A stretch of 30,117 nucleotides of DNA from a virus, in the IMG/VR virus record IMGVR_UViG_3300006802_000351, positions 1 through 30,117 of that record; one strand, written 5' to 3'. Shown here piece by piece: positions 40 to 22,705 of this stretch. Under the pieces are notes generated by a model. That model saw nothing but the letters and a program-made list of their open reading frames with translations, was not told the DNA's origin and did not search any database. Position 1 is the first letter of the stretch. Each line of letters starts with the position of its first letter. The position numbers were made by a program, and so were the translations under genes.

Positions 40-72
40 GTCCTTGGCCTCCAGACCAATTTGTGCTGATCG

Positions 73-97
73 GGCCTTAGAACGGCTTCTAGCGGCC
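73..97 (-). other. Imperfect RNA hairpin between genes
   Basis: On the coding strand GGCC-GC-TAGAA-GCCG-TTCTA-A-GGCC can fold into a nine-pair stem with a small internal bulge and a four-base loop. It lies in the gap between the stop at 142 and the start at 39. No T-run follows, so it is not a classical intrinsic terminator. It could slow polymerase, protect the 3' end of the lysis transcript or be a regulatory site. A second possible stem, GCCTCT/AGAGGC, occupies 95-117. A copy of the TGCTGATC octamer (64-71) abuts it. Confidence 0.35.
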
Positions 98-141
98 TCT
101 CAGGGGCTTCCAGAGGCTCTCTCCCGGCCTCTGTCGGGGTG

Positions 142-360
142 CTACTGGTCTCGGTCGAGATGCCAGGAGAGGTGATCTGTGAGGTGATCCCCGATCTCCG
201 TCACCCGGCCTTGCACGTCGTCGAGCTTGTTCTCCACGCGCTGCATGGCCTTGAGGTTCTCCCCGTGCTGATCGGTGTTGCGTCGGTCAAGACGGCGCAG
301 GAGGACCACCACCGGTCCGGTCAAGAATGCGACCACAATGGGCACTAGCCAGTCACTCAC
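142..360 (-). CDS. Small membrane protein with N-terminal helix and coiled coil
   Basis: This 72-residue protein starts at GTG (360), overlapping the stop of the upstream gene by 8 bases, with an AAAGGG ribosome site. Residues about 4-21 (WLVPIVVAFLTGPVVVLL) form one membrane segment followed by positive residues (RRLDRR). The rest is hydrophilic with coiled-coil character. This topology (N-out or N-in single helix plus coiled coil) is common among small proteins next to holins in actinophages. It directly follows another small membrane protein and the holin. A role in lysis (second holin, pinholin regulator or spanin-like part) is inferred from context only. Confidence 0.65.
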   Translation of the reverse strand: MSDWLVPIVVAFLTGPVVVLLRRLDRRNTDQHGENLKAMQRVENKLDDVQGRVTEIGDHLTDHLSWHLDRDQ

Positions 361-496
361 GCCAAAGCCCTTTCTGCTGATTCTCGACCTCTTGCATGTA
401 GTCGAGGTACAGCGCCCAACACCAAGCGCAGAAGAGGGCCAATGTGGTGATCACTCCCCCGGCCAATGCCAGGCCACGCAACCACCACCGGCCCAT
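353..496 (-). CDS. Small single-span membrane protein of the lysis cassette
   Basis: Starting at ATG 496, this 47-residue protein (MGRWWLRGL...) has a strongly hydrophobic stretch at residues about 9-29 with two Cys and three Trp, then a polar tail ending in KGLWRE. The start is chosen because it lies 8 bases after the holin stop and removes an implausible Arg-rich extension that would read back through the holin gene. No classic Shine-Dalgarno is seen: the sequence right before the ATG is the octamer GATCAGCA. Its position between the holin and a further membrane protein suggests a lysis helper, such as an antiholin. The start is moderately sure, the function is not. Confidence 0.55.
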   Translation of the reverse strand: MGRWWLRGLALAGGVITTLALFCAWCWALYLDYMQEVENQQKGLWRE

Positions 497-503
497 CTGC
501 TGA

Positions 504-722
504 TCAGTCGACGACGAAGCTCGCGGAGCGGGTCGACGTACGGCGGGCAGCCAATGCCTTGAGCACCGAGAGGACACCCGCCACCGCGGCCACCTTGAGA
601 GCAGTGGTGAAGCTGACTCTGGTCAGCCCCGCCACGTCGGTGCCGAGGGCGGCGAGGAGTGCCTGGGCGAATGTGCTGATCGCCCGTTCCATTGTGTCGT
701 GAGCAAACCGTGTCGAGAACAT
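504..722 (-). CDS. Holin, r1t-like
   Basis: This 72-residue protein contains ERAISTFAQALLAALG at residues about 12-27, the signature-like start of phage r1t-type holins. Two hydrophobic segments follow (about 18-32 and 40-60) with a short hydrophilic C-terminus. Holins of this family oligomerise in the cytoplasmic membrane and open it at a set time, giving lysins access to the wall. The start at 722 has AGGA seven bases upstream. ATG at 692 (MERAIS) is the alternative and would match the usual family start. It sits in a run of small membrane proteins downstream of the lysozyme gene, which supports the call. Confidence 0.8.
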   Translation of the reverse strand: MFSTRFAHDTMERAISTFAQALLAALGTDVAGLTRVSFTTALKVAAVAGVLSVLKALAARRTSTRSASFVVD

Positions 723-755: not shown

Positions 756-1022
756 CTAGGGGCGGCGGCGACTGCGTCGAATCCTTCGTCGACCTCGTGC
801 TGATTCTCCGCCCCAGATGCCCTCTCGCTCGGAGTTTGTGAGCGCCATCTCCAGGCACTCCTGCTGAACTGGGCATGTCTTGCACACCAGCACGGCGCTC
901 TCGATCCTTTCTCCCCGCTCAGGGAAGAAGATTTGGACATCAAGCCCGCGACAGGCGGCGTGCTGCATCCACTCGGGGCGTGAGAAGACCAGTCTGCTGA
1001 TCAGGTTGTAGGGATCAGACAT
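756..1022 (-). CDS. WhiB-family iron-sulphur transcriptional regulator
   Basis: The 88-residue protein has the full WhiB pattern: C24 in AACRG, then C47-x2-C50-x5-C56 (VCKTCPVQQECL), the GIWGG turn at residues 68-72, and a very basic C-terminus (ARGRRRIRRSRRR) for DNA contact. WhiB proteins bind a [4Fe-4S] cluster through these four cysteines and act with the housekeeping sigma factor. They are restricted to Actinobacteria and their phages and plasmids. The gene overlaps the upstream 60-residue gene by 8 bases and precedes the holin. It may tune late or host genes, or antagonise host WhiB-dependent functions, as known for mycobacteriophage TM4 WhiB. That role is by analogy. Confidence 0.95.
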   Translation of the reverse strand: MSDPYNLISRLVFSRPEWMQHAACRGLDVQIFFPERGERIESAVLVCKTCPVQQECLEMALTNSEREGIWGGESARGRRRIRRSRRRP

Positions 1023-1221: not shown

Positions 1222-1605
1222 TCAGATGACGGTGGTGCCGTCTGCGGTCTTCATGTGGATGGTGTCGCCCTCGACCCAGGCCCACACGTTGTAGCGGACT
1301 CCCACCGCCGATGCGATGGCGGCGAGTGCCTTGTAGTCATTCCGGCCGTAATGGGCGACCCACTTCTCGGCGTAGCTGATCGCCTTGCCGAGGTTGTGGA
1401 CCTCCTTGCCGGAGGTCTTGGTGCCCGTCGAGGTGATCAGGCGGGCAGCGCAGTCGACACCGTAGTGCGCCACCGTGCCCTCGTTACCGTCGGCGTCGAG
1501 TGCTGCAAGCCAGACGACCCGCTTGAGGTTGGTGCGGCCGCAGTGTGAGCAAGTCTCCTCGTCGTTGTTGACGCCCTTGACGGTGTACTTGCTGATCTTC
1601 TCCAT
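1222..1605 (-). CDS. Putative zinc-binding protein with CxxC and HYGxxC motifs
   Basis: The start at 1605 (MEKISKYTVKG) has an excellent GAGGAGG site. The longer frame to 1629 would lack one. The 127-residue protein carries C19-x2-C22 (CSHCGRTNLKR) and H47-YGV-DC52, a likely four-ligand metal site. The pattern CGxTNLKxxVxL ... YGxDCAA recurs in uncharacterised phage and plasmid proteins. The remainder is alpha-rich (LGKAISYAEKWVAHYG, YKALAAIASAVG) and ends in a small beta unit. It sits between the lysis enzyme and WhiB, and a promoter candidate lies just upstream. A nucleic-acid or regulatory role is possible but not shown. Confidence 0.75.
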   Translation of the reverse strand: MEKISKYTVKGVNNDEETCSHCGRTNLKRVVWLAALDADGNEGTVAHYGVDCAARLITSTGTKTSGKEVHNLGKAISYAEKWVAHYGRNDYKALAAIASAVGVRYNVWAWVEGDTIHMKTADGTTVI

Positions 1606-1627
1606 GTCCCTCCTCGAAGCGGAGGTC

Positions 1628-1655
1628 ATTGTATCGGCTCATCTGCTGATTGCAA
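1628..1655 (-). promoter_or_regulatory. Candidate sigma-70-type promoter upstream of the zinc-binding gene
   Basis: On the coding strand TTGCAA (1655-1650) and TACAAT (1633-1628) are separated by 16 bases. These match four and five of six consensus positions of -35 and -10 boxes. A start of transcription near 1621 would give a short leader before the ATG at 1605. The leader contains CCTCC-GCTTCGA-GGAGG, a hairpin that would pair with the ribosome site. One TGCTGATT octamer lies across the spacer and -35 (1644-1651). Confidence 0.4.
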
Positions 1656-1754: not shown

Positions 1755-2396
1755 TCATGACGTGGGTTGTTCGCAGTAGTAGTCGCCGTAGTTCCACGGT
1801 CCACGCCCACACACTGACCACAAGTGCGCGCAAGCATCTGCGTTGTACCCGAAGTCGACAGCGAAGCGGAACCTGTCGTACCAAGCGACGATGCCGTTAC
1901 TGCTGAAATGGCCAGCGAGCGCATTGATCTGGCACAAGCCCCATGAGTCGTCGCCGGTGCGGCGGTTGCCATTGTGCGCTGCACTGTCGCATGTGCTCTC
2001 TCTGCTGATCATGCCGAGCGCCCACATGACCGTGTCGTCCGATGCACCTCGGCTCCAGAACGCTCGGGCGATGATGTCGGCCTCGTCCTGGGAGCACCCG
2101 CTCCCCGGGCCGTAGTACTCGGGGATGCTGCTGATCCACCGCGGCAACGTGGTCGTGGTCGTGGCGATCGTCGTCTCGACCTGCACCGCCGTCCCTCTTG
2201 TTGCAGTTGCAACCACCGCCGCCGAAGAGGTGATCCGTTCATAATCGGCGCGTGCTTGCTGGTTGTCTTCGACTGCCTCGATCGAGGTCGCAATGGCGGC
2301 ATCGAGTTCGAGGCGCCCGGTGCCGTCATCAGGTGATGGCCCGATGTAGGCGAGCATACCGATGCTCGCGATGAGCAGGATTGAGCGTGTAATCAT
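1755..2396 (-). CDS. Exported lysozyme-like / lytic transglycosylase endolysin
   Basis: The start at 2396 has a near-perfect AAGGAGG six bases upstream, giving 213 residues. Residues 5-19 (SILLIASIGMLAYIG) form a short hydrophobic segment that can act as a signal peptide or signal anchor. A Thr/Ala-rich linker follows to about residue 87. The C-terminal half has a lysozyme/SLT fold pattern: catalytic Glu133 in ISRESTCD, GLCQIN at 153-158, and CGRGPW near 196-201. Six cysteines (101, 136, 155, 189, 196, 208) in this domain suggest disulphides formed outside the cytoplasm. It should cleave glycan strands of the host wall. It is followed by WhiB, holin and small membrane genes, so it probably belongs to the lysis cassette. 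A tail-tip associated role is the alternative. Confidence 0.8.
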   Translation of the reverse strand: MITRSILLIASIGMLAYIGPSPDDGTGRLELDAAIATSIEAVEDNQQARADYERITSSAAVVATATRGTAVQVETTIATTTTTLPRWISSIPEYYGPGSGCSQDEADIIARAFWSRGASDDTVMWALGMISRESTCDSAAHNGNRRTGDDSWGLCQINALAGHFSSNGIVAWYDRFRFAVDFGYNADACAHLWSVCGRGPWNYGDYYCEQPTS

Positions 2397-2432
2397 GGTG
2401 TCCCTCCTTGTGAGCGGGCACTCTAGCACCAA

Positions 2433-2891: not shown

Positions 2892-2902
2892 TGTGCTGAT
2901 CC

Positions 2903-3679
2903 TTACGCATACATCGAGTTGTAGAGGGCGGTGATGTCAGTGGTATCGAGATACACGCCCTGCCAGTATTGCACCTTGGCGATACCAGTGCCCGCTGGCG
3001 CTGACCATTGAGTCAGCGAAGTGCCTGGGCATCCAATGGCAAAGTTCATGACCGATGGGTCGATTGTAACTTCACGTGATGTGGAGGCATTGCCAACATC
3101 GTTGACGATTGTGCCTGATAGGACTCCATCGACATACATGCCGATGCTGTTCATGTTGACTCTCACGGTAATCATGTGCCAGTCCGTATCGAGAAGATCA
3201 ACGTATGCTGATCGCAGCTTGTCGTCTCCCCATTCGGGCTGGGTGTACGACAGGCGGCTTCCATCAACCGAGAAAGCCCACATCGCATTTCGTGGCTGGA
3301 CAGCACCCGCCAACGATGATGAGGCGAAAGCAAGCGTGACGGGGCTTGACACTTTGAAGGTGAAAGTTCTGGATGCTAGGGCCAAGACGAGGCTCTTGTC
3401 GTTGCACCACCGCCAGGCTCCCTGATCGCTTGTTGACGCCTTGAACCAGAAGTTGATGGTCCACAGGAAGGTGTTTTCGGATTGGAGAAGCCTCCCTGCG
3501 TAACCGTGGATGTTGGCCACCGCTTGCTGCTTGATGCTGACTCGCTTGTTGGTGAAAATGAGTGCCCCGTCGCCATTGGGCAACGAGCTTGGCACCCACT
3601 GAGCGCCATTCTCGCTCTTTGAGGCTGTGAGCGGTACTTCTTGAATCAGTTCGGGGACCGAAACCCCTGACGACGACAT
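2903..3679 (-). CDS. Tail protein with a concanavalin/LamG-like lectin domain
   Basis: The 258-residue protein shows the laminin-G/concanavalin pattern: a front strand with TINFWFKAST, and later DWHMITVRVN, then GMYVDGVLSGT. This is the usual core of carbohydrate-binding jelly-roll domains in phage tail tips. No catalytic motif is seen. It starts one base after the stop of the large adhesin and ends just before the small paralogue at 2433-2891. Likely role: recognition of host surface glycan at the tail tip. Lectin function is inferred from fold pattern and position. Confidence 0.75.
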   Translation of the reverse strand: MSSSGVSVPELIQEVPLTASKSENGAQWVPSSLPNGDGALIFTNKRVSIKQQAVANIHGYAGRLLQSENTFLWTINFWFKASTSDQGAWRWCNDKSLVLALASRTFTFKVSSPVTLAFASSSLAGAVQPRNAMWAFSVDGSRLSYTQPEWGDDKLRSAYVDLLDTDWHMITVRVNMNSIGMYVDGVLSGTIVNDVGNASTSREVTIDPSVMNFAIGCPGTSLTQWSAPAGTGIAKVQYWQGVYLDTTDITALYNSMYA

Positions 3680-3680
3680 C

Positions 3681-5876
3681 TCATGTACCCCACTTCGTTG
3701 CCAGGTAGCTCTCGATTGCGGACAGTTCGTTCGCCTGTAGCTCTCGGTCGTAGACGACTACTTCGCCGAGCACCATGTCAGAACAGTAATTGGGGTCGAG
3801 GTTGTATCTGGTGCCCACGATGATTCCTACCATGCCATCTGGACCTGCATTGCCAGATGCGATTTCGGTGCCGTTGAGTCGGAGGTATGAATTGCTCCCG
3901 CTGAAAAAAGCCACGACGGCGTGGGTGTCTCCAGTAGTAATCGTCGTAGACGACGACAATACTGTGCCACCACTCATCATCCAGTTCGTGGTGTTGAACG
4001 CCCCCACGACTGACCGGTCGTTGCCAGTGGAGAGGAAGCCATCTGTGATGTGCGAGGATGTGTCAATCGTGTCGAAATTGGCGGCAATGACGATGGTGCG
4101 AGGCTGGTCAATGGTGGCGAAAGCGGTCCGCATGTAATCGTTAGTGCCATCGAAGTCGAGGGCGTTCAGGCCGTTCAATGTCCTCGTGCCGGTTGTGGGC
4201 TGATTCGTCGCGGTTGCTTGTGCCAGGTGATACCCGTTTCCGCTCAGGTCGTTCCACTGGCTGACACTTCCGCTCGATTCGGTGATCGAGCCAGTGTCGG
4301 AGGCGTCGTACCAGACTGCTGGCAACAAGAACGAGGCGTCGAATGCGATGGCTGCGTTAGGAGTGGCAGTCTCGATGTCAGACATAGTGCCTTGCCCCAC
4401 CTGATTGCTAGCCACAACTCGGAAGCTGTACTCGGTCCCGTTTGTGAGTCCGTCGGTGAAGACGAAAGTCCCTGTTGTTGTGGTGCTCGACCATGTGGTC
4501 CCATCTGCTGAATACTGAAGCTCGTACGAGGTGATGGTCGAACCCTTGTCGTCAGGAGCAGTCCACGTTGCCGTGACTATCGTGTCGGCAACGTCCAAAG
4601 TGAGGTCGGTGATCTGGGCCGGTGTGTTGCTGATCCCCCACTTGTTGTACAAGTAGTCCTTGATGGCATAGTGCTCGTCTTCCGTGACTTCGCGGTCGTA
4701 GCAAACGATCTCGCAGATGACGCCATTGAAATAGGAGGTGGCTGTTCCTTCCAAGAGCCGACCGACCGTCATGGCGCTCCACGAACCGGCCGGTGATGCA
4801 AGCGCGAGGAAGTACTCGTCGACATAGGCGATGTTGCCGTAATGCACGGCTGGGTCGATTGGTGAATAGCCGAAGTAGTCGACCTTGATGAGTACCGGTC
4901 GCGTGGTGACTTGGCTCCCGACAATCGTGCCGCTGAAGTTGTACCCGCTAGCGCGGAGCGCGATGTAGTGGCGGGTGTCTGTGCTGATCGCATCCAGAAT
5001 TGCGTCGGAGCTAGTGCTCGTGTTGATGGTGTCCTGCTGCATTACGAGGTAGACGGCGAACGGCTGGCTGAATGTCACTGGCGTGCTGATCGCCATGAAG
5101 CTGGTCGAGCCGTCGAAGTCGACCACGTTCAAGCCGTTGACGGTGCGAGTGCCGGACTGCGGGCGGTTGGCCGCTGTTGCTTGCACGAGGTCGGTATCCC
5201 CCGATCCGGCCTCGTCGGTCTTCGACCGCCACGCCGTGACGTTGTTGCTGCCATCAGTGGTGATCGTGGAGGTGTCCGCCGCATCGAACCACAGGTCGGG
5301 CGTTGGCATGATCTCGGTGTCGACGAGCACGGTGGTGTGCGATGCCGGTGCGAAGACCTCGGAGTCGAGCGTCAGTGCTGTTCCGTCGTACGCTGTCGCT
5401 CCCCCGACAATGGCCGGTGTGCCGTACCACAGCGACACCACCATGAAGTCTCCGGCCGCCCATGTGAACGGGACAGTGGCAGACAGGTCAGACGCTGAAG
5501 CGTACGACCCCGAGGCACTGACGACCTTCAAGTCGTAGACCGTTGTCGAGTTCGCTTCAGTGACGCCGTAGTAGTCGTCGCCGTCCACGTCCTCGAAGAA
5601 GATTTGCCCGTTGGCACCTCCGCGGTTAGCGGTGTCAGCCAGGATCGTCGCCGGGAACTCGACTGACACTGCCCCGGTGATACTGGTCGTGGAGCCAAAC
5701 TGAAGCTGAATGACGATGAACGCAAGGTCTTGGACCTGCCAAAAGTAGCCGTCCGCCACTCCGTTGCCGACGGTGAGGTTCGTCCAAATGGGGTCAAATG
5801 CCTGCACCTTGGCTAGGTCATTCAAGTCGTCTGCGGTGATTACGTCGAGGTCGGTCAATCCACCGATGGCGGTCAT
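3681..5876 (-). CDS. Multidomain tail adhesin: two lectin-like domains around an FN3 domain
   Basis: The start at 5876 (MTAIGGLTDLDV) has GGGAG five bases upstream. The earlier ATG at 5915 lies inside the hub gene and lacks one. The 731 residues divide into an N-terminal beta domain (1-155, paralogous to the protein at 2433-2891), lectin-like domain 1 (about 190-415), a fibronectin type III domain (about 420-507) and lectin-like domain 2 (about 515-731). The two lectin units are clearly duplicates. Each has LWFDAADT/VWYDASDT, an internal GTRT.NGLN..DFDG, and a closing YDRE....E...I..YL..KWG. Such proteins sit at the tail tip and bind cell-surface sugars. The gene follows the hub gene, consistent with the tail-tip order. 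Confidence 0.85.
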   Translation of the reverse strand: MTAIGGLTDLDVITADDLNDLAKVQAFDPIWTNLTVGNGVADGYFWQVQDLAFIVIQLQFGSTTSITGAVSVEFPATILADTANRGGANGQIFFEDVDGDDYYGVTEANSTTVYDLKVVSASGSYASASDLSATVPFTWAAGDFMVVSLWYGTPAIVGGATAYDGTALTLDSEVFAPASHTTVLVDTEIMPTPDLWFDAADTSTITTDGSNNVTAWRSKTDEAGSGDTDLVQATAANRPQSGTRTVNGLNVVDFDGSTSFMAISTPVTFSQPFAVYLVMQQDTINTSTSSDAILDAISTDTRHYIALRASGYNFSGTIVGSQVTTRPVLIKVDYFGYSPIDPAVHYGNIAYVDEYFLALASPAGSWSAMTVGRLLEGTATSYFNGVICEIVCYDREVTEDEHYAIKDYLYNKWGISNTPAQITDLTLDVADTIVTATWTAPDDKGSTITSYELQYSADGTTWSSTTTTGTFVFTDGLTNGTEYSFRVVASNQVGQGTMSDIETATPNAAIAFDASFLLPAVWYDASDTGSITESSGSVSQWNDLSGNGYHLAQATATNQPTTGTRTLNGLNALDFDGTNDYMRTAFATIDQPRTIVIAANFDTIDTSSHITDGFLSTGNDRSVVGAFNTTNWMMSGGTVLSSSTTITTGDTHAVVAFFSGSNSYLRLNGTEIASGNAGPDGMVGIIVGTRYNLDPNYCSDMVLGEVVVYDRELQANELSAIESYLATKWGT

Positions 5877-5889
5877 GTCTGCTCCCTGG

Positions 5890-7833
5890 TCAGCCCAACA
5901 CGTTAGTGCTGCCAATTTGGCCGTAGGTCGGGTGGTTGAGGATGAGTAGCGGGCCGTTCACGTTGGTGATCGACGACGTGACGAGCCTGAGCTTGCAAGT
6001 GCTCGGGGTGATGTTCCAGTTGATGCCCTCGACTCTCAAGGCACGCCACAGGTTTTCGTTGGAGCGCACCGGGTCGTAGACCACGACGGCACCTTGGCCG
6101 AGGTCGATCTCTGCCATCTTCTTGATGGCATCTGCGTCCATGCTCCTATCCCCCAAGACGATCTCAAGCTGAGTGACTCGATCTTGCGGCTCGGCGTAAC
6201 GGGCGACGTGCCGCTCGGCTGCTGATTGAGCCACGCCTTCATACGCCGCGTAAGGCAGAGCAAGATTGGCGGAGTAGGTGCCGTACTTTTCGATGCTGTC
6301 GTTGTCCTGTGCCTCGACTGATCCGCCAAGCCACGACCCGGTGACCTCATTCCGCAGCACTACCGGATCGCTGAACATTGCCGAGACAGCGTGGATCGAG
6401 GTGACATCCAAGCCGTCGCCGACGTACAGCTTGATGCCAGGCGACACGACAGTGTCTCGGTTCAAGAAGGTGATCTTGCCGATCCGGTTGCAGAAGACTG
6501 ATCCCTGCTCGCTGCTCGCTACATCTGCCAGGTAGTTCGCCAAGAACGCACCCTCGGGATTGAGTCCACGCAGCACCTCCTGGCCATCTTCTGCGACGAG
6601 CCAGGTTGTCGGGTCGACTCCCCCGTACAGCATTACCTCCTCGATCATCGACTTGGCGTCGGTAAGCTCTTCGCCGTTGCCAATGGTGGCCATCAAAGCG
6701 GGATCGTCTCCGCCGATGGAGAAGTGAGACACGAACGCATTGAGGCCGACGTAGCAGTTCGTCAAGAGCACGGCGACATTGCCAGTGTGAACGGTGCTGT
6801 AGGCGACAGTGTTTCTGAGTATGCCATTGACGTAGACGCTCAGGTTGGGAGTTGCTGATCGCCGGAAGTAGACATGCTTGCCCCGGCCATCGAAGAGACC
6901 GTCGACAGTTGCAAGGGTCGTCTCTTGTGTTGCCGTTGGGTAGTTGAGTGTGCTGAAACCCGTGGCGTAGTCGTACATGTGGAACTTGATGATTCCGTCG
7001 TCGTCCACACCCGACGGCGCGATGGTGATGTAGCCGTTCTCGATCGTACCGGCGACATGCACTTCGATCGCATCGGATGATGTCGTCCCCACGAACCAGA
7101 ACCCAAGCTCGTGGAACGAGTACGGCCGGAAGCCATCTTGGTTGTCGTCATTGCCGAACCCGAGCAAGGTGACCGCGTCGCCCCAGTAGGTAGACGCACC
7201 TGCTGGTGCCGTTGGCTTGTTGGTCAGCGAAGCGTGAGTGTCCGAACTGAAAGGCTTGTCGTCCGCATACCAGCCTCCCGTTCGGCTCGATGGGTTAGAC
7301 ACCTCATGGAAGTAACCGCCCATCTCGACCTCTTGCTCTTGCATCGGGATGTACTCGGTGACTGTGTTCTCCATGTATTGCACGAATGCTGATTCTGCCG
7401 CCTTCACTCGTCCGAGCATCCCGAGCAGATCGAAGCACTGGATGGTTACGGTGCTTTGCTTGTTGGCTGCTTCATAGCTCTGTGGCCACCCGGCGACGTA
7501 GCCTCGGTAGATCACAGTCGATGTCTGGACGCCTCCCACTTCCCCGTGGACAAGCTCGATCTTGATGTGGTTGTTCAGGCCAAGTCCGGTGTTGGGGTCA
7601 GTCGAGTAGTACAGCCCTGCCTCGTACGTCGGGTCGAACCGGCGGTCGTGGTTGTTGAGTGTGATGGTCGCCGTACCCGGCCCAAACCGCGAGAACTCGC
7701 TCGACCGTCCTCTGGTGATCGACAGGTTCGTGACACGATCTTGGATCGTGTTCCACCCTGACGGCTCTACGAACGGTGACGCAAACCCGAGCCAAACTCG
7801 GATGTCGTAGATGTTCTCGCCCCACAATGTCAT
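5890..7833 (-). CDS. Tail hub / minor tail protein with an inserted lectin-like domain
   Basis: The 647-residue protein begins with the siphovirus hub pattern: TNLSITRGRSSEFSRFGPG followed by TATITLNNHDRRFDP (residues about 34-68), then a beta-rich segment to about 160. Residues about 180-375 form an inserted LamG-like domain with FHELGFWFVG and a YVNGILR hairpin. The hub part resumes near 380 and ends with a structural region containing the repeated QLEIVLGDR type core. Its ATG overlaps the tape measure stop in ATGA, the usual coupling. Hub proteins cap the tail tube and carry adhesins. An insertion of a glycan-binding domain into the hub is compatible with receptor binding. Confidence 0.85.
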   Translation of the reverse strand: MTLWGENIYDIRVWLGFASPFVEPSGWNTIQDRVTNLSITRGRSSEFSRFGPGTATITLNNHDRRFDPTYEAGLYYSTDPNTGLGLNNHIKIELVHGEVGGVQTSTVIYRGYVAGWPQSYEAANKQSTVTIQCFDLLGMLGRVKAAESAFVQYMENTVTEYIPMQEQEVEMGGYFHEVSNPSSRTGGWYADDKPFSSDTHASLTNKPTAPAGASTYWGDAVTLLGFGNDDNQDGFRPYSFHELGFWFVGTTSSDAIEVHVAGTIENGYITIAPSGVDDDGIIKFHMYDYATGFSTLNYPTATQETTLATVDGLFDGRGKHVYFRRSATPNLSVYVNGILRNTVAYSTVHTGNVAVLLTNCYVGLNAFVSHFSIGGDDPALMATIGNGEELTDAKSMIEEVMLYGGVDPTTWLVAEDGQEVLRGLNPEGAFLANYLADVASSEQGSVFCNRIGKITFLNRDTVVSPGIKLYVGDGLDVTSIHAVSAMFSDPVVLRNEVTGSWLGGSVEAQDNDSIEKYGTYSANLALPYAAYEGVAQSAAERHVARYAEPQDRVTQLEIVLGDRSMDADAIKKMAEIDLGQGAVVVYDPVRSNENLWRALRVEGINWNITPSTCKLRLVTSSITNVNGPLLILNHPTYGQIGSTNVLG

Positions 7834-10800
7834 GTGCCCGCCACCGCAGTGCTGATCAGTGGAGCGCCACCATTGCGGAAATACTGGTTGAGGATGTCGA
7901 CGATCTCGGCCCCGATCCTCTGAGTGTCCGCTCCGGTCTCCGCGGTCAAGTTGATGTTGATCGATGTCGGGTTAGCGGGGAAGGCGGGTGTCCCTGACGT
8001 GCTGAGTTTCTCGATGCCACCCTCGAACCGCGAGAGGAAGTCGCGGAACGCCCCGTTGAGGTCCGTCTGGATTGTGGTGATGAGCGAGGCAATCGTTGTG
8101 TCGAGCGTCGCAATCTCGCTTTCCAACTTGGGCACGCCGAACAAGCTCTCGACGAGACCGCCCTTGCCGCCAACATCCTTGGCGATCGACTCGATCTCGG
8201 CTTGTGCTGAAAGCAACTCTGCCTTGTCGGCCCTCGACATGCCGAGCAACTCCCGAGCCATCGCAGTGCCTCCGACCAGGCCCGCACTGAGAACCTGGGC
8301 GATGACACTAGGCGGGAACCCCTTGTCCTTGAGGGCCGTGAGGTTCTGCTTGAAGTTCCGCGCCTGGCGTAGTGCCAAGCGGGCACTGCCACGGAAGCCG
8401 CGAGACGGGTCGTAGCCGATCCCGAAAAGCGACTTGGACCACTGCGCCAACTCCTTGCCTTGGATCAACTGGCCCATCAACTTGTCGCGGTCCGTGGTGA
8501 TCTCGGCCAACTCGACCATGTCAGCGGCGAACTTCTCGAACACTGGCCGGAACGGGTCAGCGAGTCCCCCGTCCAGCATCCCCAGGCTCGCTGCGTTATC
8601 CAACGTGCCTCGCAAGGCGTTGACGATGTCCTCGGATGTTCCGTAGAACAGAGCCTCTGCGAAGCCTGCGCTGTTCAGGAAGTTTGCGAACTCGGCAATG
8701 CTCGCTCGGAAGTCCTCCCAGGTGTCTCCACCACCACCGCCTCCGCCACGACCACCGACGTAGGGCTTGTGCGACTCAATGCGGGCCAGTGCCTCTTCGA
8801 GTCGTTCGAGCGCGGCTAGCTCTTCCGCCATCCCCAACATGCCAGCACCGCCGGAGAACGCTGTACCGAATGCGCCCACCAACTCCCTGATTTGAGCGCG
8901 CACCTGCTCAAGGTTCAGGCCGATGGTGACCGCAATGTGCGGCGAAAGGCTGTCCAAGATCCCAAGCTCTTCGATCAACTTCATGACTTGGTCTCGCTGG
9001 AAACCGGCTGCGTCGGCTGCCTCCAAGAACGTGTTGATCAACGCAACCTGAGCCGCTTGCGTTTCATGGATGCCGTTCCCCAAGCTCAACATCTCAAGGC
9101 CAACTCGATGGAATTCGTCGTATAGCTGATAAGCAACATCGCGCAAGTCTGTGCTTTCGCTCTCCAAATTCTCGATCGACTTCGCGAACGTCGCTGATGT
9201 CTTGTCCATATTGAACAGTGCGCGCTCGGCGCTGATCACTGCTGTTTCAAGACCATCGAAGACTTGGGCAAGCTGATAGATCGAGGCTTCAGACAAGCCG
9301 ACAGCCTTGTCGAGCAACTCAATGCGATGGCGGAAATCGTCGATGCTCATGTTGGTGGTATCCATCTGGGTAGCCAGATCCCAAGCTCCCACCTGCTGTT
9401 CTTTGAGCTTGTTGTTGAGTTCTTCGATCGCCGCCGTTGAAGCCTGGAACGGAGCGGGGTCAGCGTAGTCTGACCAGCTTTCAGCCACCGCCAACGCCTC
9501 CTGCATTCTCTTGAACGCTTCTGCGGTGTCTTCAGATTGGAGTTCAATCGCTTTGAGCAGAATCGCAGCTAGCTGCTGCTCTTCATTGAGTTTGCTGAAA
9601 CCCTCTTCTGCCGATACGGTAGCTTCGGCAAGCTCGAAGAATCTGTCGGCGACCAAGCCAAGGCCGACAAGCTCTGACTTCTGCTTGTTGAACTCTTCCA
9701 GCGTGAGTGCGAAGTTCTCTGTCTGATCTCGAAGTTCGGCCACTGCCCTGATTTCGTCTTCGAGCGAAAGGGCGTACGCCTTAGCTTCTTCTCGTGACAT
9801 GCCTTGCGCCTTGGCGATTCTGTAAATCTCGTTCTTGGCGTGAACCGCTGCTGCGGCATTGGAGTCGTACGCCGCTACGTTGTCCAAGATTGCTTGGGTG
9901 TACTCGTCGCTGACACCTCTTGCTTCCAACATCGCCGAGACTTCCTCTTGGAAGCCTTCCGCTGATTGCATGGCCATGAACTGAGTTTCGTCGAAGCTCT
10001 TGCCAAGTGCGCCGAACGAACCTGTGAGCTTCTGGGCTACATCCTCACTCGACAGCATCGAGTCTCTTAGCAGTTGCTGTAGGTCGGCCTGACTTGCCCC
10101 GGCTTCGTTGTTCTCAAGGAGTGCCTGGGTGTTCTCGATGAGCGCTTTGGTGAACGCCTCGGTGGTTTCCTTGCGCGCCTTGGACTCTGCGGTGAACATC
10201 TCAAACGCCTTGACTGCCGCATAGATCGCCGCCGTCAAGGCAAGCAGTGGCAGAACTGAAGCGATGAATGCCTTGGCCGCTACCGCCGCGGCCTTGAACG
10301 ACATGATCGCCGTCTGACCGAAAACTCGAACTGCTGATGTCGATGCGCCGAACGTGGCATTGGCCGACTGAACTGCCCCGTACATGTAACGGAAGTTCTT
10401 GACGACTCCCGCCGCCGCTACTGCGGCAGATGACCCCAAGGCAAGGTTAGCCACCTTGACTGCCGCCAAGGTGATCAAGAGTGTCTTGAGTACGGCCTCG
10501 TTCTCGGTGATGATTCGAGCGAACGTGGCGAATGAGTTGATCACGGGGATCATGATGGTCGCCAAGGACTCTGTCAAACTGATGGTCGCTTCAATGGCAG
10601 GTCTAACAGCCTCAATCAAGTTCAAGAACGCGGCGCGCGCATCTTCGTTCGAGGCAATGAACACTGCAAGCGCAGCCGGTACTGCCCCACCAATGGCACC
10701 GGCATAGTTGCCAATGATCGGCAGTGTTTTGAGCAGTTGAGTACCGGCGAAAGTGCTGATAGCAGTGGCAGCAGCCGCTACTGCCGGGAAGAACTTCTTG

Positions 10801-11771: not shown

Positions 11772-11772
11772 G

Positions 11773-12302: not shown

Positions 12303-12330
12303 GATGTACTCCTAGTTGTCGGTGTGGTGA

Positions 12331-12747: not shown

Positions 12748-12756
12748 GATGACTCC

Positions 12757-13482
12757 TTAGCGTCGGGCAAATGAGAGGATGAAGGTGATCGAGCCGGTGG
12801 AACCGGCCAGGGTGTAGTTGGCCCGCAAGTAGCGGTTGACCGTGGTCCCAGATGCCACGACAGCGATGCCTGACCCCGTGGTGGCGGCGGTCAAGTCGGA
12901 GAAGGTTACGAGGTCGGCCCACGTCGAGTTGTCGGCTGAGTGCTGGACCTTGATGGTCGTAGCGCCATCTCGCGTGTTGGCAGTGGCGTGATACACCGCG
13001 ATCCCGCCGTTGCTCGTGCTAGCGCCGTGATCCTCCGAAGCTGCTGTTCCGGTTGCCGTGACGGCTGCATGGCCGGTCAGTGCTACGCCGTTGTCGAGTC
13101 CACCGTCAGCCTGAAGCTCGGCCGATGCCGCCACCACGTCGCCGACTGGGGCGGACACGTCGTAGCTCGTCGCCTCGACCTTGGCGATGGAGACTCGGTT
13201 GCCCTTGGTGGCTCCGCCGTAGGCCACCGTTGCAACTGCGCCATCCTCGACTCCGAGGAGACCGCTCAGTACTTCATCGATTGCATCTGCTGATCCATCG
13301 AACATCCCCGAGACCGAGACCGTGGCGTCGGACAGGCCAGGAACGTACGTCTTGTCGGAAGAGCCGAAAGCCGTGGTCTCCGCCGTCTCGACGCTCACGC
13401 TCGGGCTGGCGTCGTTGAAAAAGGCAGACAGGTCATGTGCGTTGACGAAGACCGCCGTGTTCTTGCCGTGAATGAACGCCAT
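12757..13482 (-). CDS. Major tail tube protein with C-terminal beta domain
   Basis: The 241-residue protein has a tube domain at residues 1 to about 130, shared with the paralogue at 12331-12747. A C-terminal domain (about 130-241) carries VKVQHSADNSTW-like and NRYLRANYTL strands. Such appended domains are frequent in actinophage tail tube proteins and decorate the outside of the tail. GGAGG precedes the ATG by about seven bases, and the ATG overlaps the upstream TGA by one base. The gene precedes the tail chaperones as usual. Confidence 0.9.
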   Translation of the reverse strand: MAFIHGKNTAVFVNAHDLSAFFNDASPSVSVETAETTAFGSSDKTYVPGLSDATVSVSGMFDGSADAIDEVLSGLLGVEDGAVATVAYGGATKGNRVSIAKVEATSYDVSAPVGDVVAASAELQADGGLDNGVALTGHAAVTATGTAASEDHGASTSNGGIAVYHATANTRDGATTIKVQHSADNSTWADLVTFSDLTAATTGSGIAVVASGTTVNRYLRANYTLAGSTGSITFILSFARR

Positions 13483-13661
13483 CAGTCGACCTCCTCATCT
13501 CCGCGCTTGGCCGTCTTCGGTGGCAGCTTCGGCTTGGCCATTTCCTCGACAATCTGCTGATCGAGGAGCCACTTGACCGAGTGCTTGGGGAGGTCATCGA
13601 CAAGGTCGCCGGGTTCTGCCCGCTTGCCCTCGTAGTCGATTCCAATCAAAACCTTGTACAT
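13482..13661 (-). CDS. Small conserved phage protein upstream of the tail tube genes
   Basis: Starting at ATG 13661 after an AAGGAG, the product has 59 residues. MYKVLIGIDYEGKRAEPGDL and HSVKWLLDQQIVEE look like the short actinophage proteins commonly found between connector and tail genes (GIDYxGKRAExGDxVxDLPxxSVKWLL pattern). It ends Lys/Pro-rich and acidic. No function is known to me. The frame to 13745 without this start would read through the likely promoter leader, so 13661 is preferred. Its stop overlaps the tail tube start by one base. Confidence 0.75.
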   Translation of the reverse strand: MYKVLIGIDYEGKRAEPGDLVDDLPKHSVKWLLDQQIVEEMAKPKLPPKTAKRGDEEVD

Positions 13662-13698
13662 GCTGCTCCTTGCACGCCACTGGACCCTGCAAGGCGGG

Positions 13699-13740: not shown

Positions 13741-13754
13741 ATCAATTGGCCCTG

Positions 13755-13921: not shown

Positions 13922-14314
13922 TCACAACTCCTTCAACACGTTGAAGTTGCAGGAGAGGACCGAGCGCTGATTGGCGTCCCGCTCAATGATGTACGGCGAT
14001 GTCACGGCTTCGATCCGGTGGTAGAGCGTGCCATTGATAGTGGCATTGGAGATCGAGGTGATCAGTTGCCACAGTGTGTCGGCCAGTGTTCTCCCCGCCG
14101 CATAGGACGTATTGCGGACAATGAACTGGAGTTCTGGGCGGTCAATGCGAGGCAGGTTTACACTGCCCATTGTGCTGATCGGCTGCACGCCCGAGTTCTC
14201 GAACAGGCCCACGACATTCCCCGGCTCGTCCGGCAACAGGGACAGGAACAGGTCGGTCCCGAGGGTGAGCGCGGTGTTCGAGGCGACGTATCCGCCGATG
14301 TCGTCGAGCATCAT
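13922..14314 (-). CDS. Tail terminator protein
   Basis: The 130-residue protein has the features of siphovirus tail terminators: MLDDIGGYVASNT near the start, then the LPDEPGNVVGLFENSG core, the PRIDRPELQFIVRN segment and a closing strand with RSVLSCNFNVL. Terminators cap the tail tube and join it to the head connector. Its ATG overlaps the preceding gene stop as ATGA, with GGGAG six bases upstream. It follows the neck protein and precedes the tube genes, the expected order. Two adjacent ATG codons make the start uncertain by one codon. Confidence 0.85.
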   Translation of the reverse strand: MMLDDIGGYVASNTALTLGTDLFLSLLPDEPGNVVGLFENSGVQPISTMGSVNLPRIDRPELQFIVRNTSYAAGRTLADTLWQLITSISNATINGTLYHRIEAVTSPYIIERDANQRSVLSCNFNVLKEL

Positions 14315-14718: not shown

Positions 14719-15032
14719 CCGAACGTCACCACCGTGTGTTCAAGCCCCTCGACGACCGTGTGAATCTCGATGGACGTGATCGTCGGACTGCGACCGTCGG
14801 GGAAGACGATCTTGTCGTGGATGGTGATCGACGTGTCGGAGATGTAGGCCCGGGTCGGCTGGTGCGTCTCGTCGATCTGGGTCGTCCCGGTCAGAACCAA
14901 GTTCGGCTCGACGTAGGCGCGTGCTGTTCGAGCGGTGCCTAGTGCCTTGTCGCCGTAGTTGTCCGTCGCACCCGCCGGGTAGATCGTGACGACATGCGGC
15001 ATGAACGAGAGGAGTTGCTGATCAATCGCCAT
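14715..15032 (-). CDS. Head closure protein
   Basis: The 105-residue protein has the small beta-barrel pattern of head-tail closure rings: VVTIYPAGATDNYGDKAL, then ARAYVEP, a HQPTRAYISDTSITIHDKIVFPDG strand series and THVVEGLEHTVV-like ends. The start at 15032 has GAGGT six bases upstream. It lies between a small protein gene and the neck gene, in the canonical connector order. It likely closes the head opening after packaging and before tail attachment. Confidence 0.8.
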   Translation of the reverse strand: MAIDQQLLSFMPHVVTIYPAGATDNYGDKALGTARTARAYVEPNLVLTGTTQIDETHQPTRAYISDTSITIHDKIVFPDGRSPTITSIEIHTVVEGLEHTVVTFG

Positions 15033-16198: not shown

Positions 16199-16650
16199 CA
16201 CGACCTCAGTCTGTAGGGCGCGTAGCTGTAATCGTCAGTCGGATAGACACGCTCGTTGTCGTGGATGCCCTTGCGCCCGAACGTCGTCTCACGATCGTTG
16301 TCCAACTCACGGGACTCCTTCTCGCTCCGCTTGAAGCCAGAGATGAATGGCCCGACTGGCTCCAACTCTTCCTTGGACATGAGCGAGTTGGCAAGCTCCA
16401 TGTACTGCCGGTACTTGGCACTGAAGTCGGCCGACAACCCACCAATCGAGCGGTTCATGTTCCGGGCGAACTTGGCGGCAATCGCACGGCAGCACTCAGA
16501 TGCTGATCGGTTCAGTGTCCCATGCAGCGTGACTAGATAGTCGACCTCTTCATCGGAGATCAACTGGTCGTTGGTGTCCGTGTCTCCAATGACGAAGCGC
16601 ACAGCGTCGCGCTTCGACTGGTTGGGGTCACCGGAATACGACCAAGACAT
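16198..16650 (-). CDS. Head-tail connector / adaptor protein
   Basis: The 150-residue protein begins with SGDPNQSKRDAVRFVIGDTD, then DQLISDEEVDYLVTLHG and a helix with CCRAIAAKFARNMNRS. This is the hallmark of gp6-like adaptor proteins (DP..S..D.VRF.IGDT......L.DEEI) that sit beneath the portal. The N-terminal half is helical and the C-terminal third is polar and probably flexible. The TGA overlaps the amidase start. The gene follows a small coiled coil protein and opens the connector block. Confidence 0.85.
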   Translation of the reverse strand: MSWSYSGDPNQSKRDAVRFVIGDTDTNDQLISDEEVDYLVTLHGTLNRSASECCRAIAAKFARNMNRSIGGLSADFSAKYRQYMELANSLMSKEELEPVGPFISGFKRSEKESRELDNDRETTFGRKGIHDNERVYPTDDYSYAPYRLRS

Positions 16651-16659: not shown

Positions 16660-16809
16660 TTACTCGGTCGGGGATTCAACTGGTAGTGCTGATTCTGCTT
16701 GCAACTGCTTGACGGCAGCGCGCAGCACAGCATTCTCGATCGTCATGTTCTTGATCTGCTCAGACAGATCGTCAAGAACCGCTTGCACGTCAATGTTCAT
16801 TTCACTCAT
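16660..16809 (-). CDS. Small coiled-coil protein (49 residues)
   Basis: ATG at 16809 opens a 50-codon frame ending with TAA at 16660. AAGGGG lies upstream. The product MSEMNIDVQAVLDDLSEQIK continues with NMTIENAVLRAAVKQLQAES and ends LPVESPTE. Residues about 8-40 form a heptad pattern with Leu and Ile at a/d positions and few breaks, so a short parallel coiled coil is likely. Similar small coiled-coil proteins occur in actinophages next to connector or fibre genes. It lies exactly in the gap between the FN3 protein and the connector gene, which leaves little doubt that it is a gene. Function unknown. Confidence 0.8.
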   Translation of the reverse strand: MSEMNIDVQAVLDDLSEQIKNMTIENAVLRAAVKQLQAESALPVESPTE

Positions 16810-19655: not shown

Positions 19656-19667
19656 AGCCCGACTCTA

Positions 19668-21542
19668 TCAGGCAACGATGGCAGTCGAGAAGATTCGGTA
19701 GGTCGTCGAAGACGAGCTTGCTGCCGTGGCGGTCAACTCCAACGACGAGTTGGTGTAGGCAACCTCGAAGGTCGCTGGGGCGGTGCCCACAACAACCGTC
19801 GCGTACTCCGTGAAGTTGACCGTGCTGTTGTTGTAGACCGCCAGAAGCTCGGTGCTCACAGAGTTCGTGCCCTGCACCGCTTGGACGAGGTACTTCACGG
19901 TCGTGAACCCAGAGACCGCGTGAGACTCGATCACAGTCGGGCTAGTCGTCGTAGTGGTGTCGGCCACCGTACGCTGAGTCGAGGTCGCCGTACCGTCAGA
20001 TGTGCTGACCGAGCCGAACGTGACATCGCTCGTTGTAGCGACGGCCTGACCGATGGCGATGCTCGGAGTCGACCCTTCGCCCGTACCACCAGTGACGGTG
20101 ACGCCCGTGCCACCAGTGACAGAGGCAACGTAGTTGCCGGTCGTGTCAGTGCCGAGCGCAACCGAGTTCGCCGCGATGGTCGCCGTCAAGGTGACGTTCG
20201 CAGAACCGTCGATGCTGACGTTACCAGTGAGGTCGCCACCCAAGGTGATGGTGCGAGCCGTAGTCCACGACGCGGCAGTACCAGTCGTGTTGGCGTTGAT
20301 CGTCGCCGGGAGGCTCAGGGTAACTGCGCCGGTCGAAGCCGAGACCGTGATTTCGTTCGCGGTTCCGGTCAGCGAAGTGACACCGGAGTTCGTTACTGTA
20401 ACGGAATCCGCACCGGCATCGGTCGTCAGTGTGATGCCCGTGCCGCCGACAAGAGTCAGTGTGTCAGACGCCTGGTCAGCGACGACGTTCGACTGACCCG
20501 AGACAGCAATCGTGGTGAAAGACGAAGCGGACGACAAGGTGGCGGGAGCAAACTTCGTGCCGTTGTACTGGAGCACCTGACTGCTCGTGGCTCCGGTCGT
20601 GTCGACCTCGATACTGTCGACGAACAACGTCGAAGTTTCGACCGTGCCGACATCCAGCGTGCCCTTTGTGCCGGAGAAGACCTCGCTCGTGTTCGTGGCA
20701 TCAGGGATGAACGTGAACTTGCCGGACGAGTCATCGAAGCCGAAGAAGCCGACCTTGGCAGACGTTCCATTGTGCCAACGGAACTCGATGCCTCGGTCCT
20801 TGCTGTCGTCTGAACCGGGAGCCGTGTCGCCACCGAGCGTGAAGACGGGATCGTCAATCGTGACGACGGTCGAGTTGACGGTGGTGGTCGAGCCGTTGAC
20901 GATGAGGTCTCCGGTGACCGTCACGTCATTGGCGAAAGTCACCGTTCCGGCAGCATCGCCGATGTTGAGGGCGGTAGCAGCGCCACCGAAGTTGATCGTA
21001 GTTGCCGTGGCATTGACGAGATTGAACGTCGTCGCCGTGGTGGTGATGTCGCCACCGTTGACCGCAGCATCGCCCGTGAGTGTCAGGCCAACGAACGTCG
21101 GGGAAGCGCCCGTGTGAATGTCTTGAGGCAGCGACAACGTGATCGCCGCATTCTCAGAACCCGAGCCGGTGACGGTGACCTGATTGGTCGTGCCAGCAAT
21201 GGTGGCGACGTAGTTGCCCGTGGTATCGGTGCCGAGTGCGACGCTGTTGGCGGCGATGGTGGCTGTGAGCGTGACGTTTGCTGATCCGTCAATGCTGACG
21301 TTGCCCGTCAGGTCTCCACCGAGCGTGATCGTTCGTGCCGTGGTCCACGCCGACGCCGTTCCCGTGATGTTGCTATCGGTGAAGGCGATCGTCTTGGTCG
21401 CCGCTCCGGTGTAGAACTTCAGTGCCCCGCTGTCGTTCCAGAGGTCTCCGTTGGTCGATCCGGTCTGCGCGCTGGAGCGAATGACGACCTTGCCGTCGAC
21501 ATCAACACCTACAGATGGGATTCGGAAATCCTGACGAGCCAT
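19668..21542 (-). CDS. Large fibre protein with internal 53-residue duplication
   Basis: The 624-residue protein is almost entirely beta, rich in Thr, Val, Gly and Ala. It has an N-terminal SVGVDVDGKVVIRSS block, repeated TITLGGDLTGNVSIDGSANV units, a FNLVNATATTINFGG/ALNIGDAAGTVTF segment (about 173-205) typical of T4-like fibres, and a C-terminal domain (about 540-624) with STELLAVYNNS and TEYATVVVG. This last domain is shared with the next fibre at 21572-22705. Residues 61-113 and 421-473 are the same 53-residue module. It lies in the fibre block downstream of the capsid gene. Likely trimeric fibre. Receptor binding is inferred. Confidence 0.85.
   Translation of the reverse strand: MARQDFRIPSVGVDVDGKVVIRSSAQTGSTNGDLWNDSGALKFYTGAATKTIAFTDSNITGTASAWTTARTITLGGDLTGNVSIDGSANVTLTATIAANSVALGTDTTGNYVATIAGTTNQVTVTGSGSENAAITLSLPQDIHTGASPTFVGLTLTGDAAVNGGDITTTATTFNLVNATATTINFGGAATALNIGDAAGTVTFANDVTVTGDLIVNGSTTTVNSTVVTIDDPVFTLGGDTAPGSDDSKDRGIEFRWHNGTSAKVGFFGFDDSSGKFTFIPDATNTSEVFSGTKGTLDVGTVETSTLFVDSIEVDTTGATSSQVLQYNGTKFAPATLSSASSFTTIAVSGQSNVVADQASDTLTLVGGTGITLTTDAGADSVTVTNSGVTSLTGTANEITVSASTGAVTLSLPATINANTTGTAASWTTARTITLGGDLTGNVSIDGSANVTLTATIAANSVALGTDTTGNYVASVTGGTGVTVTGGTGEGSTPSIAIGQAVATTSDVTFGSVSTSDGTATSTQRTVADTTTTTSPTVIESHAVSGFTTVKYLVQAVQGTNSVSTELLAVYNNSTVNFTEYATVVVGTAPATFEVAYTNSSLELTATAASSSSTTYRIFSTAIVA
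20124..20282 (-). repeat. Internal fibre repeat, copy 2 (residues 421-473)
   Basis: Encodes a module nearly identical to residues 61-113 of the same protein: 51 of 53 residues agree and the two differing residues are a swapped Ala/Ser pair. At DNA level 37 of 159 bases differ, by my alignment, nearly all at synonymous positions. Confidence 0.9.
21204..21362 (-). repeat. Internal fibre repeat, copy 1 (residues 61-113)
   Basis: The partner of the module at 20124-20282. It begins GTASAWTTARTITLGGDLTG and ends at TDTTGNYVA. The intervening 307 residues contain different fibre sequence. Confidence 0.9.
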
Positions 21543-21571
21543 ACCTTTGGGCCTTCCTTGGAACTAAGACA

Positions 21572-22705
21572 TCAAGGTCCAACTTTGGCATACAAGATGC
21601 TGAATGTCAAAGGCGTCTGGGCCGGTGTAGCAACTAAACGCATCGACCCTCCCGAGTATTCCGCGTCAATAGACGCAAGCGTAGAACCGCCAATAGCCAG
21701 GAATCCGTACTCTGTGTATTCGAGGTCGCTTCCGTCATGAATGGCCAATAATTCGCTGGCTTGACGGCCAGTAGATGAGTTGGAGACATGCACAACGAAC
21801 TTCGCACATTGCGCGTCAACAGAGGCAATGGTTTGCGGAATCAGTGTCGAACTCGTGTATGTAATCGTCTGGAGTGCGCCGGGAGAAAAAGCCGACGGCC
21901 CCCAAAGCCCGGTCCCCGAAGAGTAGGTCAGAACGTCCCCGTTGGACGCGCCGGATACGTCCACGTCTTCGGACTCGGCAAGGGAACCGGCGAACGTCGG
22001 ACGGACAAGAACCGTTCCGTTCGACTTCTGATTGACGGCGACCGCAACCGTGACGATGTTGTTCGGTGCGGACGGTGCAGTCGACTGGAATCCACCCGCC
22101 ACCGTCGTCGAGGCGTACAGGATGCCGGGCGTGAGAAGCGACGTGTCAAACGAGCGCAGCTTGCCCCGCCAGAGGACATGAATGAACTCACCCGTGTCGG
22201 CATCTTGCGTCGCCAAGCCGATCACGGTCTTGGACTCGTAGGTGCCGTCGGCGAGGAACGGTGCGGCGAGGATGTGACCGCTCGCCCCATCGGTGCCGGT
22301 GTAGTGGACGACCTGGCCGCGGGTGATGGCCGAACTCGCCTTGACGTAGAAGTACTCGTCCTGGCCGATGTGCATCAACGTCGGCGTACCTGTGCCGTTG
22401 CGGAGGAGTACGTCGATCGTGTCGACATCGGCATCCCACGTCATCTGACCGGCAGCCGTCAACGTCTCCGCTGCTGTCGTGTCGAAGTCGATCTGGTCGA
22501 CCTTGATCTCGTCTTGCCAGGCGACATCGCCATGCGCTGCTGATTGCTTGACGAGGAGATCGTCAGTGGCACCGCTCAACGGAATGACGGCAGGCGTCGT
22601 GACAGTGAACGAGTTGTCGGTTTGCGTCACCGTCACTGAGTTGTCGGCCTCGACAACTACGACGGAGTTGTTGGCTTCAGTGACCGAGACTGTGTTGCTG
22701 CTCAC
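21572..22705 (-). CDS. Fibre protein with N-terminal short repeats and shared C-terminal domain
   Basis: The 377-residue protein begins with three to four short repeats of the form [ND]NS[VF]xVxx (NTVSVTEA, NNSVVVVEA, DNSVTVTQT, DNSFTVTTP), a likely beta-stack attachment stem. A middle domain with GQDEYFYVKASSAITRGQVV and ESKTVIGLATQDADTGEF follows, a pattern frequent in phage fibres. The C-terminal domain (about 290-377, SELLAIHDGSDLEYTEYG and LVATPAQTP) is homologous to the C-terminus of the 624-residue fibre. The gene overlaps the upstream gene in ATGA. Probably a fibre subunit that shares a trimerisation or tip domain with its neighbour. Confidence 0.8.
   Translation of the reverse strand: MSSNTVSVTEANNSVVVVEADNSVTVTQTDNSFTVTTPAVIPLSGATDDLLVKQSAAHGDVAWQDEIKVDQIDFDTTAAETLTAAGQMTWDADVDTIDVLLRNGTGTPTLMHIGQDEYFYVKASSAITRGQVVHYTGTDGASGHILAAPFLADGTYESKTVIGLATQDADTGEFIHVLWRGKLRSFDTSLLTPGILYASTTVAGGFQSTAPSAPNNIVTVAVAVNQKSNGTVLVRPTFAGSLAESEDVDVSGASNGDVLTYSSGTGLWGPSAFSPGALQTITYTSSTLIPQTIASVDAQCAKFVVHVSNSSTGRQASELLAIHDGSDLEYTEYGFLAIGGSTLASIDAEYSGGSMRLVATPAQTPLTFSILYAKVGP

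Follow-up and report, generated by a model that had tools for sequence, protein, structure and literature searches.

The window analysed here, the whole 30,117-base IMG/VR virus record IMGVR_UViG_3300006802_000351 (G000), carries the octamer RATCAGCA (TGCTGATY on the plus strand) 28 times on its coding strand and never in the reverse direction. The window holds a late operon transcribed from its minus strand, and all window counts rest on that record, with a set of 33 open reading frames (ORFs). The results support an oriented DNA- or RNA-level signal rather than codon usage, as an earlier note on this DNA had suggested; codon shuffling, the sharpness of the unit, the turnover of its places and its presence in five lineages all point that way. 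Among the candidates offered by that note, a polar motif resembling Chi, the octamer GCTGGTGG read by RecBCD in Escherichia coli, fits best, and we put the probability that RATCAGCA serves phage DNA as a polar signal of the Chi type at roughly 0.42.

The count of 28 to 0 given earlier was reproduced, and all coordinates lie within 64-22545. Dinucleotide shuffles gave on average 2.34 copies, both strands together, with a maximum of 7, and none of 100 reached 28. Inside ORFs we found 23 of the 28 sites, against 2.35 under synonymous-codon shuffling (standard deviation 1.50, maximum 7 in 500 shuffles). Codon usage or chance is already refuted by this test. The ORF-internal sites fall 4, 9 and 10 times in the three codon frames, and the remaining five (64, 498, 1644, 2894 and 16687) stand outside ORFs or cross ORF edges, which bears out the statement that copies occur in all frames and in gaps. 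The sites are the following.

64..71, minus strand, GATCAGCA, outside ORFs, beyond the last late gene seen
266..273, minus strand, GATCAGCA, in small ORF 142-360
375..382, minus strand, AATCAGCA, in small ORF 353-496
498..505, minus strand, GATCAGCA, spanning the stop of 504-722, directly before the ATG at 496
674..681, minus strand, GATCAGCA, in the holin gene 504-722, common to the L201/L271 holin gene
798..805, minus strand, AATCAGCA, in the WhiB gene
995..1002, minus strand, GATCAGCA, in the WhiB gene, near its start
1590..1597, minus strand, GATCAGCA, in ORF 1222-1629
1644..1651, minus strand, AATCAGCA, intergenic
2003..2010, minus strand, GATCAGCA, in ORF 1755-2432
2129..2136, minus strand, GATCAGCA, in ORF 1755-2432
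2894..2901, minus strand, GATCAGCA, intergenic, directly before the ATG of 2433-2891
3206..3213, minus strand, GATCAGCA, in ORF 2903-3679
4628..4635, minus strand, GATCAGCA, in ORF 3681-5915
4982..4989, minus strand, GATCAGCA, in ORF 3681-5915
5084..5091, minus strand, GATCAGCA, in ORF 3681-5915
6220..6227, minus strand, AATCAGCA, in ORF 5890-7833
6853..6860, minus strand, GATCAGCA, in ORF 5890-7833
7387..7394, minus strand, AATCAGCA, in ORF 5890-7833
7850..7857, minus strand, GATCAGCA, at the end of the 1313-residue ORF 7830-11771
13288..13295, minus strand, GATCAGCA, in the major tail gene, the sole site common to G005 at an aligned place
13555..13562, minus strand, GATCAGCA, in ORF 13482-13745
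14173..14180, minus strand, GATCAGCA, in ORF 13922-14314
15016..15023, minus strand, GATCAGCA, directly after the ATG of 14715-15032
16501..16508, minus strand, GATCAGCA, in ORF 16198-16650
16687..16694, minus strand, AATCAGCA, intergenic
21279..21286, minus strand, GATCAGCA, in the structural-protein ORF 19668-21542
22538..22545, minus strand, AATCAGCA, in ORF 21572-22705

Their density averages 0.93 per kb on one strand, and their positions are not uniform (Kolmogorov-Smirnov p 2.4e-5 for 27 of the 28 sites, one being omitted for too short a flank). As described before, seven copies fall in the first kilobase and two beyond 16.7 kb. Copies had also been said to touch four start codons; this holds for those at 496, 2891 and 15032, but in our reading the ATG at 1605 is the ninth codon of ORF 1222-1629 rather than its start.

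An octamer count against Markov models, proposed as a check in the earlier note, was run on the window. ATCAGCA and GATCAGCA came out as its top 7-mer and 8-mer at orders 1, 2 and 3, and also under codon shuffling. RATCAGCA is absent from the 15 top words shown of a maximal-order test, which takes the overlapping sub-words of an octamer as given and is blind to it. Apart from AATCAGCA, single-base variants of GATCAGCA are low, with rises at GATCACCA (9), GAACAGCA (6) and GAGCAGCA (5). The unit is a sharp 8 bp, with almost no information and no preference in its flanks.

We collected relatives by a scan with the major capsid protein (309 found, 80 kept; one listing of their loci took in only those over 4 kb). 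Codon shuffling of 54 contigs left 48 with p over 0.001; in six p was under 0.001, namely the window, G001, L271, G002, G005 and also L024, which duplicates part of G001. Copies were left out as lineages (L024 and L141, parts of G001; L040, of G002; L201, part of L271), and five lineages of one siphovirus family carry RATCAGCA, with a pooled direction of 94:5 in favour of the coding sense. Sense copies observed and expected under codon shuffling number 23 and 2.45 in the window, 24 and 4.5 in G001, 17 and 2.2 in L271 (a count affected by a doubtful minus-strand ORF), 11 and 1.15 in G002, and 8 and 1.1 in G005; the directions over the whole contigs are 28:0, 26:4, 21:0, 11:1 and 8:0, respectively. 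The sites of the window, G001, G005 and L271 fall in mixed codon frames, and in G002 10 of 11 sites share one frame.

The conservation of sites expected by the earlier note applies to the word and its direction, but mostly not to the places. Among window sites in alignable codons, one of five is common to G005, none of seven to G001 and none of six to G002; one further common site is that in the holin gene of the window and L201/L271. Since word and direction are constant while places change, the signal is likely to be read in trans rather than to be an inherited local element. Close relatives with 86-87% capsid identity are nearly devoid of sites (none in G006 and G007, one in G008). In a quick capsid tree of 38 rows, which holds four of the five lineages (the L271 contig has no capsid gene), the positives need three changes, at least two of them forced by starred branches. 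This result is weakened by L041-L043, whose capsid is the same as that of L044 and which were labelled motif-negative because their contigs are short.

The following genes of the window were assigned or compared with those of relatives.

142..360, minus strand, small ORF, last before the window edge, with homologues at L271 5050-5250 (coding orientation) and G001 49379-49570
504-722, minus strand, holin gene, near the left edge
756-1022, minus strand, WhiB gene, near the left edge
7830-11771, minus strand, 1313-residue ORF, probable tape measure judged solely from size and place, with no PHROG match
12757-13482, minus strand, major tail protein gene
15344-16201, minus strand, amidase gene
19668-21542, minus strand, structural-protein ORF
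23523..24482, minus strand, major capsid gene, query of the capsid-based family search

L271 is 13.9 kb long. Read in coding orientation, its 21 sites all fall within the initial 5.25 kb, which reach as far as the apparent late-operon end; the 8.7 kb that follow, a terminase/helicase sector, are free of sites. The break comes directly beyond the homologue of window ORF 142-360. The earlier note had placed the focus of the gradient to the left of the window; this is unsupported, because the site-rich sector of L271 ends there. Past the break lie a gene labelled RNase E, a methyltransferase, a probable terminase large subunit and, on the other strand, a DnaB helicase. The terminase assignment comes from a weak phrog_9 match and from P-loop and nuclease motifs read by eye; a PDB search gave weak terminase matches only, ranked below weak ferrochelatase ones, and BLASTP found no match between this candidate and the terminase large subunit of the related phage Ottawa. 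G001 (L091, 53.7 kb, GC 0.43) is probably a complete genome, with a 266-base terminal overlap at 98.5%, though the record has no exact end repeat. The G001 sector that matches the site-free part of L271 starts at 49.6 kb, crosses the end of the record and runs to 12 kb; it contains two sites, at 51565 and 982. Two other words, CCAACCCA (10:3) and ACTTAGCG (9:3), occur at G001 1958-12785, mostly in the early sector without RATCAGCA, and are possible early promoters or origin repeats.

How a Chi-like word would come to face one way may be pictured as follows. The terminase would cut near its own genes during headful or cos packaging, and one side would be packaged, while the other, presumably the 3' end of the late operon, would be left as an open DNA end. 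A helicase-nuclease of the RecBCD, AddAB or AdnAB type, probably of the host, would enter at this end, move against transcription, meet RATCAGCA from the 3' side of the coding strand and switch from degrading to recombining. Because such an enzyme would enter from one end and read in one direction, selection would keep the word one-way at any point along the path, and some phages would have it densest near the open end. The entry end was deduced from the position of the terminase in L271. The active side of Chi is its 3' side, and the direction of the sites fits an approach from the late-operon end.

Like Chi, which is read in one direction, RATCAGCA is a sharply defined asymmetric octamer tied to neither frame nor place, and its window copies all face one way; unlike Chi, it is a different word with a choice of purine at its first base and an almost absolute direction. 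Its 9- to 10-fold excess under codon shuffling is similar to that of true Chi in phage P1, which carries it in some 10-fold excess. The same test applied to true Chi gave 27 copies against 2.6 in the first 50 kb of P1 and, for a 50-kb stretch of E. coli K-12, 9 against 2.0. Chi direction is 31:19 in P1 and 7:1 in T5. In P1 at 64-94.8 kb, a stretch that we take to stand before the pac region, it is 16:5 (p 0.027, the stretch having been picked after the places were seen). As described in part of Bobay 2013 (PMC3784561), Chi is in excess in phages without RecBCD inhibitors and densest between replication genes and terminase. Two relatives, Ottawa and Laroye, are annotated with a Gam-like end protector or a 'host nuclease inhibitor', and RATCAGCA shows no clear excess in them (none against 2.1 in Ottawa, 3 against 0.8 in 50 of the 60 kb of Laroye), but the same is true of relatives that lack Gam.

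Several observations on the phage side weigh against a Chi-like signal. True Chi shows no excess in the second control, a stretch of T5 (3 against 2.4), and the 94:5 direction of the window family is far more absolute than that of Chi in P1. In G001, 24 of the 26 sites are scattered between 12 and 49 kb (Kolmogorov-Smirnov p 0.13) with no thickening at the late-operon end; the gradient of the window is real, yet not general. The relative G003 (L021, 43.7 kb, 85% capsid identity) has 5 sense copies, together with 8 antisense copies against 1.85 expected; its shorter word TGCTGAT stands at 22:7, with 17 of the 22 in one codon frame. Gam is present in 1 of 17 records and is absent from G001 and motif-negative records alike, leaving the groups unseparated, and UvsX-like, Cas4-like exonuclease and RuvC-like genes are common to the positive G001 and the negative G003, G006 and G012. 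True Chi is missing in both directions (0:0) from two enterobacterial relatives, PQ783785 (L335, 56.5 kb) and OR508996 (L336, 58.5 kb), where the reversed Chi control word has 5 and 4 copies, respectively. Finally, we scanned IMG/VR for triple sites (at least 120 stretches in the first scan, of which 80 were listed, and 72 in the second, filtered to loci of at least 3 kb). Among the matches listed, dense sets facing one way were not seen in any unrelated phage; the standouts were L201 and L271, of the same family as the window, and the next-best loci had at most seven non-repeat sites, three of them owed to the search pattern.

The bacterial side adds to these points, no host or reader having been found among the genomes sampled. 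In stretches of 20-112 kb from 13 genomes of the phylum of a metagenome-assembled genome labelled Actinomycetota, RATCAGCA occurs 112 times on both strands against 59 expected under codon shuffling, an average excess below that of Chi in E. coli. The highest single genomes were G280 (8 against 2.1) and G209 (16 against 6.0) and, in a later sample of four, G123 (14 against 5.4). With single-genome excesses of up to 8 against 2.1, the sampling neither finds nor excludes the host. The densest of 296 genomes reach about 0.22 copies per kb on both strands (sizes rounded), compared with the single-strand 0.93 per kb of the window, and RATCAGCA was not among the top octamers shown in the 8 of 17 sampled genomes in which all octamers were ranked. 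The mapped parts of G300 (50 of 204 places) and G155 (100 of 339), neither established as host, show no polarity of the word, with both strands mixed. They likewise give no support to a segregation-type motif of the kind of FtsK-orienting polar sequences (KOPS), another candidate of the earlier note.

In one genome of that phylum, G088 (L121-L125), the top octamer after codon shuffling was GCTGGTGG, E. coli Chi itself, at 14 against 2.8. The word RATCAGCT was tried as a control for RATCAGCA and rejected as flawed, the outliers G316 and G166 avoiding AGCT. Words containing AGCT are also avoided after codon shuffling in G001, G003, G012 and G015, and the window avoids GACGTC, GAGCTC, GCCGGC and CTCGAG in the same test, which looks like restriction avoidance differing by host.

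A second one-way word was found in G015 (L080, 34.1 kb, 59% capsid identity), where GAGTTCA, counted in the coding sense, is 23:0 and falls in every frame as well as in gaps. Inside ORFs it occurs 21 times against about 2.8 expected, and it is sharp around TGAGTTCA. Four other words of relatives, TGCGGCT, GTTTGAG, TGGCGCT and TGCGGCA, were considered as sister motifs and rejected as wholly or nearly frame-locked. From this one further case, GAGTTCA supports words specific to lineages. It is conceivable, and we offer it as a tentative extension with odds clearly below even, that this family of uncultivated siphoviruses, probably infecting actinobacteria, tracks the recombination enzyme of its hosts, each lineage writing a locally valid polar Chi-like word. 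RATCAGCA would then be the word of several lineages and GAGTTCA that of another, the direction would face the end bared by terminase, and the word would be dropped or swapped at a change of host.

Among the other explanations, stoperators, also named in the earlier note, come closest, although we consider them unlikely. A phage protein would bind RATCAGCA as a monomer and halt or modulate late-operon transcription in one direction. According to parts of PMC6550527 and PMC9283540, the stoperators of the L5 clade are asymmetric, number 20-30 per genome, are syn-oriented to transcription and differ in sequence from one relative to the next as they drift. In like manner, RATCAGCA is asymmetric, present in many copies and oriented with late-gene transcription, and another relative, G015, has its own word. 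In contrast, stoperators are 13-14 bp long and stand largely in short intergenic spaces, whereas RATCAGCA is an 8-bp unit with uninformative flanks, mostly internal to ORFs (23 of 28 sites) and absent from the terminase/helicase sector of L271. No repressor was found among the window proteins scanned, nor a repressor or integrase in 20 of the 61 G001 ORFs compared with PHROGs.

The word could also act at the RNA level in late messages, as a site recognised by an endoribonuclease or RNA-binding protein or as a tag of transcript stability, which we regard as improbable. The sense-strand-only placement in the window and the confinement of L271 sites to the apparent late operon fit such an element, as does the protein matching a PHROG labelled RNase E that adjoins the site boundary in both L271 and G001; that neighbour gene, however, is also found in motif-negative G003. 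Compared with the octamer transplanted at random, the sites show no clearly greater tendency to be unpaired (p 0.055 in the window, 0.76 in L271 and 0.65 in G001), and this lack of structural context weakens the proposal. G001 sites lie, moreover, inside replication and recombination genes (DnaE-like, UvsX-like) as well.

Another polar DNA marker, be it a guide for a packaging, replication or segregation motor or an asymmetric restriction/modification site kept one-way, appears just as improbable. It would account for the single direction and the freedom of place, and the reverse hexamer TGCTGA is depleted in the ORFs of the window (0 against 6.3) and in G001 (9 against 18.8), but not in G005 (6 against 6.1) or G002 (6 against 3.4). 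DNA methyltransferases are encoded in G001 and L271; they have no tblastn match to each other, though some PADLOC methyltransferase models are common to both. Phage T7 keeps its EcoP15I sites in one direction, as is the case for all RATCAGCA copies of the window, but RATCAGCA is strongly over-represented, and one-way placement explains the missing reverse rather than the 9-fold excess of the octamer. With KOPS and architecture-imparting sequences the word shares its short, polar, place-free octamer form, but it is found on a virus and lacks polarity in the mapped parts of the two bacterial genomes.

Chance, codon usage or a repeated protein domain can practically be dismissed: three other enriched words in relatives are wholly or nearly frame-locked (TGCGGCT in G003, GTTTGAG in G006, TGGCGCT in G012), and pentapeptide-type genes, named by eye, hold 15-base site arrays in four of eight inspected loci of the first triple-site scan, but RATCAGCA occurs in all frames and gaps, above all 500 codon shuffles, in five lineages and at mostly different places.

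As for the phage itself, no near match to window positions 1-25000 was found in the phage collection. Scans with the protein of 5890-7833 and with WhiB yielded none and one relative, respectively. The WhiB gene and relatives from Arthrobacter and Microbacterium (49-53% capsid identity) suggest an actinobacterial host. Upstream of the capsid gene, at 26751-30113, lies a long gene, a 1120-residue ORF that has DUF5872 and matches the PHROG named ParB C-terminal domain. Two further repeats were seen in the window. TGATCACCAC recurs at 451, 1222, 12331 and 13776, the copies at 1222 and 12331 standing directly at stop codons, and GATCACC favours the coding strand (21:2); the latter was rejected as a separate signal, ATCACC copies being mostly in-frame Ile-Thr.

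A search of the paper library for the octamer as a whole word, in five forms, did not find it. If RATCAGCA is Chi-like, it would offer a Chi candidate for a group of bacteria that has none in the portions of the literature searched, and it would mean that phages can hold a Chi-like word almost absolutely in one direction. Phage genomes could then be used to read the Chi of the host and perhaps its identity. Should the family indeed track the enzyme of its hosts, the word could act as a host tag and as a candidate Chi where that of the host is undescribed. Even if it is not Chi-like, RATCAGCA remains a clear one-way code, free of place, that several virus lineages carry.

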